Assembly: GCA_002256345.1 (NCBI GenBank)
Contig: NKIY01000002.1
Location: 868,001 to 932,000, forward strand
Direction of reading: 5' to 3'
From: Bradyrhizobiaceae bacterium PARB1
Lineage (GTDB): Bacteria; Pseudomonadota; Alphaproteobacteria; Rhizobiales; Xanthobacteraceae
DNA: 64,000 nt
This document shows positions 30,005-32,137 of this stretch, piece after piece. The notes beneath the pieces are model-generated. The model searched no databases. It had not been told where the DNA came from and worked only from the letters and a program-made list of their open reading frames with translations. The position numbers and the translations under genes were made by a program. The first letter of the stretch is position 1, and each line of letters opens with the position of its first letter.

Positions 30005-30053
30005 GGGCGCACGTGAGTGGCGGCTTCATCATGTGGAAGGGTGGGCCACCAAC

Positions 30054-30338
30054 ATGAAGCGCGTGACCAAAAAGCCATCGGGACTGGCGTCCAAGAAGCG
30101 CCTCCCAGCGCCTCGGAAGACCGTGAGTGTGGACGAGCACATTGGAACAGCTATCGCAGCAATCCGCGCCGACAAGCACCTCACCCAGACCCAGCCGGCA
30201 GACGCTCTAGGCATCAGTCCTCAGCAGCTGCAAAAGTACGCAAGCGGAAAGAACAGGGTCTCGGCAGCCCGCCTCTATGAAATCTGCTGAATCCTCGACG
30301 TCCCCATCTCGCAGCCCTTCGAAGAGCTCGGAGTCTGA
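30054..30338 (+). pseudogene. XRE/Cro-CI type regulator with in-frame TGA
   Basis: From ATG 30054 the frame encodes a helix-turn-helix domain of the Cro/CI type (LTQTQPADALGISPQQLQKY, then YASGKNRVSAARLYEI). A TGA at 30288-30290 stops it after about 78 codons, just where the family continues. In the same frame the sequence goes on with LDVPISQPFEELGV to TGA 30336-30338, a normal ending for these repressors. The simplest reading is a nonsense mutation near the C-terminus; the DNA-binding part could still be made. It belongs to the tRNA-adjacent remnant. Confidence 0.65.
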
Positions 30339-30394: not shown

Positions 30395-30414
30395 CTGTAA
30401 GGTTCGTGTAAGCC
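30395..30414 (+). promoter_or_regulatory. Tandem 11-bp box upstream of the porin-like gene
   Basis: CTGTAAGGTTCGTGTAAGCC contains TGTAAG twice, exactly 11 bp apart, the spacing of OmpR/PhoB-type response-regulator sites. It lies 104 bp upstream of the barrel gene. A 19/20 copy occurs at 31336-31355 downstream of that gene. Confidence 0.45.
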
Positions 30415-30517
30415 AATCCCCGCGACATGTTGCCTTCGAGCTACATCGCCATGATGGAATCAGTGACAGATTGTCGCAGGCGCCCGATCTTGGCGCGCTA
30501 GTGGCTTGGGGTTTCAA

Positions 30518-31252
30518 ATGAAGAAGTTTCTGCTTGCTGCGACCGCACTGGTTGCGTTCGCTTCGATCGCGCCGGCGACGGCTGCCGATCTCGCTGCCCG
30601 TCCTTACACCAAGGCTCCCGCTCTCGCTCCGGCCGCGGTCTATGACTGGACCGGCTTCTACATCGGCGGTCACGTCGGTGGCGACTGGAATGGCAACAGC
30701 ACGTTCGGCGGCAACAACAATGGCCGCTTCATCGGCGGTGTCCAAGGTGGCGCTGATTGGCAGTTCGGCGGCAACTGGGTTTTTGGCGTCGAAGCCAACT
30801 ATAGCTGGAAGACCAGCGGTAACGGCAATGGCTTCGCCTTCGTTGACCCGGCTGGTGCAGGTCTCCTGACCAACAATTCCAGCAACCGTGGCATTGGCTC
30901 GGCTACCGCCCGCCTCGGCTACGCCTGGGGCCCGACCCTGCTCTACGTCAAGGGCGGCTACGGCTTCCGCGACAACACCAACACGGTCGTGACAGTTGCC
31001 GGTGCCCCGGTCGCGTTCACTTACGACCGCAAGTCGAGCGGCTACACCGTCGGCGCTGGCCTCGAATATCTGTTCACCCAGAACTGGTCGGGCAAGATCG
31101 AGTATCAGTACTACAACTTCGGCAATTCGCAGTTCACTGCCGGCCCGGTTGCTTTGACGGGTCTTGGCTCGTTCCGCAGCGACGAGCACACCATCAAGGC
31201 TGGCCTGAATTACCGCTTCAACTGGGGCGGTCCGGTCGTCGCCAAGTACTAA
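30518..31252 (+). CDS. Outer-membrane beta-barrel protein (Omp25/Omp31-like)
   Basis: A 244-residue protein from ATG 30518. Residues 1-23 form a signal peptide ending ATAA. The mature part starts with an Ala/Pro-rich linker, then WTGFYIGGHVGG, the strand-turn signature of alphaproteobacterial Omp25/31-like barrels. About eight amphipathic strands follow and the last one ends in VVAKY with a C-terminal aromatic. Such proteins are abundant surface proteins with structural or porin-like roles. It is monocistronic, ending in a strong terminator, and is preceded by a tandem 11-bp box. Confidence 0.9.
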   Translation: MKKFLLAATALVAFASIAPATAADLAARPYTKAPALAPAAVYDWTGFYIGGHVGGDWNGNSTFGGNNNGRFIGGVQGGADWQFGGNWVFGVEANYSWKTSGNGNGFAFVDPAGAGLLTNNSSNRGIGSATARLGYAWGPTLLYVKGGYGFRDNTNTVVTVAGAPVAFTYDRKSSGYTVGAGLEYLFTQNWSGKIEYQYYNFGNSQFTAGPVALTGLGSFRSDEHTIKAGLNYRFNWGGPVVAKY

Positions 31253-31279
31253 GCTTTCCAATCTCCTCCAGAACAACTC

Positions 31280-31310
31280 AAGCCCGGTTTCGCGCCGGGC
31301 TTATTTTTTT
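31280..31310 (+). terminator. Intrinsic terminator of the barrel gene
   Basis: AAGCCCGG (31280-31287) pairs with CCGGGCTT (31295-31302), 7-nt loop, followed by ATTTTTTT. It lies 27 bp after the stop. Confidence 0.95.
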
Positions 31311-31335
31311 GCTCGCGTTCTCTACGAAGCTCGGT

Positions 31336-31355
31336 CTGTAAGGTTGGTGTAAGCC
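31336..31355 (+). promoter_or_regulatory. Second copy of the tandem 11-bp box
   Basis: Differs from the 30395 copy at one base and keeps both TGTAAG half-sites 11 bp apart. No convincing protein gene follows on this strand; instead an intrinsic terminator appears about 65 bp downstream. Confidence 0.45.
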
Positions 31356-31372
31356 GAGCAGGATAGCGCTCC

Positions 31373-31457
31373 CGCTGCCTTCGCCAAGGTGAGTCAGCCC
31401 CTGCCTCGAAAAGCGAAGGCCCGGAGCCGCCCTTCTCAGGAGCGGCTCCGGTTTTTT
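31373..31457 (+). ncRNA. Candidate small RNA between box and terminator
   Basis: Roughly 85 nt between the second tandem box (with a weak GGATAG as -10 at 31361-31366) and the hairpin-T6 terminator at 31421-31457. The barrel gene already ends at its own terminator 110 bp upstream, so a second strong terminator needs its own transcript. The 5' end is a guess. A 111-codon frame starts at 31389 but runs straight through the terminator and lacks protein-like character. Confidence 0.35.
31421..31457 (+). terminator. Intrinsic terminator without an obvious upstream gene
   Basis: CCGGAGCCGC (31421-31430) pairs perfectly with 31442-31451; 11-nt loop; TTTTTT follows. Probably the end of the candidate sRNA. 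Confidence 0.85.
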
Positions 31458-31493
31458 CGCGGCCAGCACATCTTGTCGGGGCTGCCTCAAGGC

Positions 31494-31525
31494 AAAAAGG
31501 CCGCCCAGCGCGAAGCTGAGCGGCC
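31494..31525 (-). terminator. Terminator of the YkgJ-like gene
   Basis: GGCCGC...GCGGCC stem-loop (31499-31525), interrupted but GC-rich, followed on the minus strand by TTTTT. It lies 46 bp beyond the stop of the leftward cysteine-cluster gene. Confidence 0.8.
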
Positions 31526-31570
31526 AAATTTCAATTTAGGTGGAAATCCCGATATCAACCTTGCTGCCAT

Positions 31571-32137
31571 CTATGTCTCAACAGAGTTAGATCGCGCAAG
31601 GAGGTCTGATCTCATCCCAAGACCATCAGACCTCCACGAGAATGCGCTTAAGCCATCGCGAGCATTGGCTAGCACCGTGAGCACGCCGTTCAAGTGGCGT
31701 TGTTGCACGGGATTTTTGAGCTGACTTGTTAGATCTAACGTTGCGGGCAACTGGCCAGGCAGCCCCATGAACTGGACACGGACGGAATACCCAGCCTGAG
31801 CAAACATGCCAATCACTTGAGCAAATCCTTCAGACAGATACCGCTTCAGCGGATCGATGATCGTGAAGGTCACATCGTTGCGGTCGATATCGTCGGGCCT
31901 GATTACGATCCCGGAAATATCCGGTCGCCAATCATCGGAAAGCTGCGGCATTGAGCGCCACAAGCAGTGCCAACCAGAGCAGACGCTCGGCCGCACAGAG
32001 TAGACTTCGCAGCCAACGCCCTCAGAACAATGAGTGCAAAGGACGTTAGACGGCTTCTGCAGGCCATCCGTATCTATGGCAATGAAGCGACAGCATTCGA
32101 CACAACCACCGCACACACGACCTTCGACAAGCGACAT
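31571..32137 (-). CDS. YkgJ-type cysteine-cluster protein
   Basis: A 188-residue protein with a cysteine-rich N-terminus: CGGCVECC near residues 9-16, then CTHCSEGVGCEVY and RPSVCSGWHCLW. This is the arrangement of the YkgJ/UPF0153 family, thought to bind zinc or an iron-sulfur cluster. The C-terminal 110 residues have no motif I recognise. It is monocistronic with its own T-tailed terminator. It sits at the right side of the accessory segment, but codon use looks ordinary. Confidence 0.75.
   Translation of the reverse strand: MSLVEGRVCGGCVECCRFIAIDTDGLQKPSNVLCTHCSEGVGCEVYSVRPSVCSGWHCLWRSMPQLSDDWRPDISGIVIRPDDIDRNDVTFTIIDPLKRYLSEGFAQVIGMFAQAGYSVRVQFMGLPGQLPATLDLTSQLKNPVQQRHLNGVLTVLANARDGLSAFSWRSDGLGMRSDLLARSNSVET

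Follow-up and report, generated by a model that had tools for sequence, protein, structure and literature searches.

The window analysed here, a stretch of 64,000 nucleotides from Bradyrhizobiaceae bacterium PARB1, contains two near-identical sequence boxes, one upstream of a gene for an outer-membrane β-barrel protein and the other after the terminator of that gene, where it is followed by a predicted small RNA (sRNA). The elements of this locus, some of which recur in a second genome (G002), are the following.

30395-30414, plus strand: box 1, CTGTAAGGTTCGTGTAAGCC, 5' of the porin-like gene; CGACAT, and thus no TA-starting element, stands 10 bp downstream
30521-31252, plus strand: gene for an Omp25/31-like outer-membrane β-barrel protein of 243 aa (Pfam OMP_b-brl, 1.8e-16)
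31249-31527 and 31278-31490, minus strand: two ORFs, known from the ORF list only
31280-31310, plus strand: terminator of the porin-like gene, a 9-bp stem (31280-31302) and a T-run
31336-31355, plus strand: box 2, CTGTAAGGTTGGTGTAAGCC, the predicted response-regulator site in the sRNA promoter
31364-31370, plus strand: -10-like element TAGCGCT, 10 bp after the core of box 2
31377-31457, plus strand: predicted sRNA of about 80 nt, its start placed by the -10 element and its end by the terminator
31377-31420, plus strand: 5' hairpin of the sRNA, arms 31377-31384 and 31413-31420, 8 pairs
31389-31724, plus strand: the only plus-strand ORF of at least 60 aa, running through the terminator, no Pfam match
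31390-31404, plus strand: C-rich loop TGAGYCAGCCCCTGC, a candidate pairing region
31421-31457, plus strand: intrinsic terminator of the sRNA, a 10-bp stem followed by T6

The two boxes agree at 19 of 20 positions, lie 941 bp apart and each contain TGTAAG twice at 11-bp spacing, just as an earlier reading of the letters alone (the sequence-only reading) had described them. Within the window, the exact tandem TGTAAG-N5-TGTAAG occurs at boxes 1 and 2 only; with up to two mismatches there are three matches against 0.50 expected, a number reached by one of 100 shuffles. The genome-wide scan proposed in that reading recovered exact copies of TGTAAGGTTNGTGTAAG at these two boxes only in the 6.95-Mb genome and, at up to two mismatches, four matches, compared with two for a reversed-pattern control. 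In all, the genome (G000) holds three exact TGTAAG-N5-TGTAAG sites, while exact copies of TGTAAGGTTSGTGTAAG are expected by chance about 3e-5 times per genome, as estimated with an order-1 Markov model built from the window. Like boxes of the PmrA type, these boxes consist of two direct half-sites 11 bp apart, but the half-sites themselves are not the CTTAAG or XTTAAT given in the available part of PMC3973317; TGTAAG matches CTTAAG at four of six letters. In another genome of the family (G109, L011:1501-1528), the usual two units are replaced by about four GTGTAAGNTTG-like ones in tandem, again with an 11-bp period.

Judging from TAGCGC at 31364, the predicted sRNA would start at about 31375-31378, and it would end at 31457 with the T6. 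Its terminator combines a perfect stem (31421-31430 with 31442-31451), an 11-nt loop and T6 at 31452-31457, which bears out the earlier claim of a perfect hairpin-T6 terminator within about 100 bp of box 2; a terminator scan with a loop limit of 8 omitted it, probably owing to the 11-nt loop. The segment 31375-31458 (84 nt) has a predicted folding energy of -46.4 kcal/mol (z -5.78), and none of 200 shuffles was equally stable, while the G002 homolog reaches z -3.42 (1 of 200 shuffles). Rfam gave no match over the sRNA at the gathering score; the only two sub-threshold matches, both over the porin terminator, were discarded. The features by which a trans-acting sRNA is recognised, namely its own promoter, a stable fold, an intrinsic terminator and a conserved unpaired region, can all be read from the sequences of the two genomes. 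Side observations in this region are a terminator-like hairpin just 3' of the sRNA on the minus strand (31499-31525; 11-bp stem, T5) and a similar one, noted by eye, 3' of the sRNA in G002.

No credible protein gene had been seen between box 2 and the terminator, and indeed the sole plus-strand ORF of at least 60 aa reads through that terminator. Nevertheless, box 2 could drive a transcript for a small protein: a conserved start codon, GTG here and ATG in G002, opens the same frame (MSQPL), which stays open from there in both genomes with no frame-breaking alignment gap downstream. We consider this highly improbable, as no ribosome-binding sequence was seen by eye, conservation tracks the hairpin arms and the loop, and the frame crosses the terminator hairpin with no stop, so that transcription would already be terminated inside the ORF.

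The sRNA homolog in G002 (C1:5244526-5244655) is 79-80% identical, and the blastn match to the window is confined to 31326-31459 within the 3.8 kb compared. Conservation tracks the predicted elements: the box is identical at 17 of 17 positions, TAGCGCT at 7 of 7 and the loop TGAGYCAGCCCCTGC at 14 of 15, and both terminator arms are identical, as is T6CG. Within the 5' stem, one change is compensatory (U-A to G-C) and one pair is broken, and as the sRNA is known from G000 and G002 alone, the support from covariation is confined to these two pairs. That another genome has kept the sRNA along with the box supports the notion of an independent, box-driven small RNA.

Searched with a covariance model, the sRNA is present in two of 18 genomes of the genus (G000 and G002), which is taken to be the soil bacterium Tardiphaga, and this model, built from two sequences, found no further convincing matches among 391 genomes of the family. 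Eleven weak matches outside G000 and G002 (best E 0.0017, in one genome) were treated as chance. Likewise, blastn searches of 248 family genomes at E 0.1 gave matches in 73, but those outside G000 and G002 were all short, weak fragments (best E 7.8e-4), and in a plasmid collection nine Bradyrhizobium records matched weakly, solely over the porin part.

Turning to the porin-like gene, the name Omp25/31-like is that of the sequence-only reading, which had placed box 1 before a gene of this kind; the Pfam assignment is OMP_b-brl, and the ATG lies 108 bp from the 17-bp core of box 1. The protein is one of 23 matches in its own genome, and among 20 porin loci scanned only its own carries a box. Its closest relative, in G006, is 83% identical; no box was found there within three mismatches, and no sRNA match in the G006 genome. 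Some 1.3 kb away from this G006 gene (L237:7570-10646), an RND adaptor gene runs divergently that is 57% identical to the box-controlled adaptor described below; no box was found at this G006 locus within two mismatches.

These comparisons bear on the proposal that porin and sRNA form a couple, in which the regulator switches both, or one on and the other off, and the sRNA acts on the mRNA of this porin, so that their adjacency reflects function, after the model of OmpR and MicF. Such a couple would explain why the two near-identical boxes, both of them exact, stand less than 1 kb apart although the whole genome has no more than three exact tandem sites, and the GGGG in the ribosome-binding region of the porin could pair with the C-rich loop. 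Yet the loop does not pair with the porin start region clearly better than shuffles do (p=0.19), box 1 is not followed by a -10-like element at the usual spacing, G002 has the sRNA but no porin-like ORF was seen in the surrounding 12 kb, and the closest porin relative, in G006, has no box and belongs to a genome that gave no sRNA match. We therefore regard the couple as unlikely. The alignment of relatives suggested in the sequence-only reading thus upheld the joint conservation of box, sRNA and terminator, in G002, but not that of the porin with them, and a conserved porin-sRNA pair finds no support in either genome; for the pairing, G006 is the very case, named in that reading as refuting, of a relative that keeps the porin while lacking box and hairpin.

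Since the box and sRNA of G002 have an XRE-like fragment upstream but no porin in between, box 2 and the sRNA may have been there first, and the porin, along with box 1, may have been acquired locally. Loss of the porin in G002 would be another possibility. The XRE-like fragment 5' of the G002 box and sRNA resembles the one 5' of box 1 (46% over 39 residues, E 8e-5), which lies in what by eye is an XRE-like ORF at 30033-30290, interrupted in frame by a stop after EIC and readable again beyond it. An origin of the G002 layout by recombination between the two boxes was considered and is disfavoured; the DNA 5' of the G002 box resembles that upstream of box 2.

The segment 29250-32500 forms a variable stretch between a tRNA-Arg gene and a gene that by eye resembles CYTH/CHAD. 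Because pieces of it are found again on another contig, C22, close to a paralog of the porin, the sequence suggests a mobile or rearranged region. On this background, the hairpins could be remnants of an accessory element, next to a coincidental or inactive box and with no RNA made. The patchy distribution (two of 18 genomes), the position in a variable stretch after tRNA-Arg with parts recurring in the genome, and the similar XRE-like fragments upstream in both genomes all fit this explanation. It is hard to reconcile with homology that ends at the edges of promoter and terminator, with a chance expectation of exact boxes far below one per genome, and with a box-to-TA spacing equal to that of most pump promoters (see below), and we judge it distinctly improbable.

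What, then, might read the boxes? The other two genomic matches to TGTAAGGTTNGTGTAAG, with one and two mismatches, both lie 5' of genes for membrane-fusion (adaptor) proteins of RND pumps. The first of them, C26:463561, about 435 kb from the boxes in the window, separates two divergent gene sets: an adaptor gene with a permease gene after it, and a response-regulator gene with a histidine kinase gene after it. The permease belongs to the CzcA/CusA family (TIGR00914, 893 bits, cut-off 701), and the adaptor exceeds the cut-off of the general RND_mfp model (156 against 94.9) but not that of the CzcB-type model TIGR00999 (150 against 319). With Response_reg (4.8e-24) and Trans_reg_C (6.6e-20) domains in Pfam, the regulator scores below the cut-offs of TctD (193 bits against 337), PmrA (191 against 330), QseB (182 against 345) and cztR_silR_copR (175 against 279), which by sequence places it in the PmrA/QseB/TctD branch but identifies it with none of these named regulators; its nearest relative of solved structure is BasR/PmrA. 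The earlier assignment of the boxes to a regulator of the OmpR/PhoB class accords with these similarities. The kinase scores 206.8 with the metal-sensor model TIGR01386, below the NCBIfam cut-off of 292.6. Kinase and adaptor resemble metal types while staying under the cut-offs of those families, and a metal role seems likely; the signal itself is a guess, as the kinase falls below the metal-sensor cut-off and the regulator below all those given above.

The link between box and pump system extends through the genus. Across 18 Tardiphaga genomes, exact TGTAAG-N5-TGTAAG sites number seven, against three for the reversed pattern, and are located at four pump promoters, two sRNA genes and one porin-like gene. 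Adaptors with at least 81% identity occur in four of the 18 (G000, G014, G002 and G004), which are exactly the genomes with exact sites; the other 14 have none, and the three sites of the control all lie outside these four. In each of the four, an exact box is found at the pump promoter beside the regulator. When 23 adaptor loci were examined for a tandem within two mismatches, or within three if TA stood at the fixed spacing, the four orthologs had a box and the other 19 did not. Weaker adaptor-linked sites outside these 23 are found at C26:418443 in G000 and as a pair near 3230750 in G002. Such weaker sites carry no weight alone, because the reversed control exceeds the matches once mismatches are allowed (43 against 20 at one mismatch in the four system genomes, 70 against 21 at two mismatches in the 18 genomes of the genus); the case for a link between box and system rests on the exact sites. 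The sRNA itself is found in two of the four genomes with the regulator system and in none of the 14 others, a co-occurrence that is suggestive only; G014 and G004 have regulator and box but no sRNA match, G014 being 94% complete and 8% contaminated.

Over a family sample of 248 genomes, 26 sites lie within one mismatch of TGTAAGGTTNGTGTAAG, compared with five for the reversed pattern. Eleven precede adaptor genes, all 11 with Pfam HlyD_D23, two stand beside a regulator gene only, one belongs to the porin and two to the sRNA, and ten have no recognised partner. A promoter layout recurs among these sites: a TA follows the box at exactly 10 bp in nine of 12 pump promoters (the 11 family sites and G004; L004 and the pair L217/L218 were left out) and in both sRNA promoters, but in only one of the two regulator-only sites and one of the ten others, and the porin box has CGACAT. 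The weaker adaptor-linked boxes left out, L004 and L217/L218, have no TA at this spacing. If p=0.05 is taken for each site, the binomial probability of nine in 12 is 4e-10, the real weight of which is smaller as several sites are near-identical by descent. In PhoB and PmrA promoters, the response regulator stands in for the -35 contact, and the layout from box to TA appears to fit a regulator acting in this way. Because box 1 lacks a -10-like element at the fixed spacing, its effect on the porin may be activation, repression or none.

Box-like stretches were also noted further afield. In the contig collection, 17 of 91 stretches of box plus TA come from a single AT-rich MAG, 'Hyphomicrobiales bacterium GL140_1_metabat_75' (L085, L086, L095, L098, L101, L106, L109, L118, L131, L133, L137, L144, L152, L153, L157, L169 and L173), where 12 of 15 inspected are followed at a distance of 29-252 nt by the start of an ORF of at least 100 aa, the encoded proteins being mostly unfamiliar; from the sequences, a PmrA-type regulator seems to control a large regulon there. 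Three betaproteobacterial or similar records (L092, L135 and L147) have box-N10-TA before acetyl-CoA synthetase-like genes, as seen by eye.

The boxes might instead be read by another response regulator of the same subfamily that is not the pump-linked one. The genome is rich in RND adaptor-like genes, the adaptor giving 29 matches; another of these genes, C26:417140, has a weak box, and the helix core is common to box-linked regulators elsewhere, so that more than one could read the box: in alpha- and betaproteobacteria, all 15 aligned box-linked regulators have NA(V/I)EVY(V/I) in the recognition-helix region, which was placed using the BasR alignment and the available part of PMC3973317 and reads EVYVHRLR here and EVHIHNLR in BasR. 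This comparison covers box-linked regulators alone, and a shared helix is no proof of specificity. The presence of an exact box beside this particular regulator in four of four Tardiphaga genomes with the system and in none of the 14 lacking it, and the lack of a box at the 19 other adaptor loci examined, make another reader quite unlikely.

We thus consider it probable that a PmrA-class regulator acts at box 2 to produce a free-standing sRNA at 31377-31457. The box, the regulator class and the sRNA gene are well supported by sequence, and the box-to-TA spacing, the predicted fold, the conservation in two genomes and the link of the box to regulator and pump can be followed in the same data. 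For the remainder, we infer the following course of events. Box 2 would be the binding site of the PmrA-class response regulator whose gene neighbours those of a sensor kinase and a CzcA/CusA-type RND pump. Once the kinase is stimulated, presumably by metal or envelope stress, the phosphorylated regulator would occupy both half-sites in head-to-tail orientation and so substitute for a -35 element, with transcription by RNA polymerase starting just after TAGCGC. The resulting transcript of about 80 nt would form a 5' hairpin exposing the C-rich loop and end at the T6 terminator. It would most likely pair via CAGCCCCUGC with the ribosome-binding regions of mRNAs, probably including those of outer-membrane proteins, while in this strain the regulator would also control, through box 1, the porin-like gene next door, in either direction.

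Candidate targets were sought in two ways. Pairing of the 31-nt loop core of the window's own sRNA with the start regions of eight porin-family genes from its genome, five from G002 and two regulon genes gave a lowest p of 0.17 relative to shuffles, so that no target was clearly better than these; CAGGGG precedes one porin paralog in both genomes, which is suggestive, yet the p values are 0.54 and 0.58. A seed-plus-ATG search with GCAGGGGCTG yielded ten matches in G000 and 12 in G002 (control, four in each); one of the latter is simply the G002 sRNA read in antisense. Eight of the 22 seed loci were inspected, and two pairs seemingly shared between the genomes were rejected, as by eye they seem to overlap coding sequence, on the sense or the antisense strand.

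As a broader reading, which we offer tentatively and with some doubt, a two-component system for metal efflux, from the PmrA branch, would possess an sRNA arm, such that switching on the pump releases an RNA that remodels the synthesis of outer-membrane proteins, and individual strains would recruit surface-protein genes by gaining a box. If this is true, the regulator of an efflux pump would govern both the pump and a dedicated small RNA, linking export with intake across the outer membrane, and the RNA would be an alphaproteobacterial, metal-responsive sRNA of the kind speculated on for zinc-porin control in Pseudomonas (in the available part of PMC5083921). With three exact genomic sites, the predicted core regulon is tiny, and a single strain would suffice to test nearly all of the circuit; similar circuits could be searched for by the box and the -10 spacing fixed to it. 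Judged by titles and the openings of abstracts, none of the open papers listed describes a Tardiphaga sRNA or a TGTAAG tandem box, although open papers cannot prove absence. The predicted sRNA would be a new one that follows a regulatory plan already known, its unusual side being the regulator, which is that of an efflux pump.

This plan has several precedents. In Escherichia coli, OmpR controls porins together with the porin-targeting sRNAs MicF and OmrA/B; these systems differ from the present one in that their regulator belongs to another subfamily, whereas here the pairing with a target is only a candidate. OprD of Pseudomonas aeruginosa, which enters the comparison below, is a different kind of channel from this porin-like protein. 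Within the alphaproteobacteria, the ChvI-ChvR-ChvT system of Caulobacter crescentus, as far as described in the available part of PMC6237742, is similar in that a two-component system drives an sRNA, predicted in our case, which there represses a TonB-dependent outer-membrane receptor by base pairing. By contrast, ChvGI is conserved, tied to low pH and other stresses and not an efflux-pump system, and the target of ChvR is proven (PMC6237742, same part). In P. aeruginosa, the metal-efflux two-component system CzcRS also controls the porin OprD, the repression of which requires Hfq and has led to speculation on a zinc-regulated sRNA (available part of PMC5083921). The CzcR motif GAAABCTWHGVGYAAY, said to resemble the earlier GAAAC-N6-GTAAT, is unlike the TGTAAG-N5-TGTAAG of this locus, and no CzcR-driven sRNA is named in the available part of that ChIP-seq study (PMC13209446); since non-coding RNA was removed before its tables were compiled, an sRNA arm of CzcR may exist. 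Lastly, the PmrA/BasR box of Salmonella, with the head-to-tail hexamers CTTAAG and XTTAAT 5 bp apart (available part of PMC3973317), shares the arrangement and the 5-bp gap of the boxes described here, but differs from them in its half-site, which is TGTAAG at this locus, and in the linked genes, which here are those of an RND pump and a predicted sRNA.
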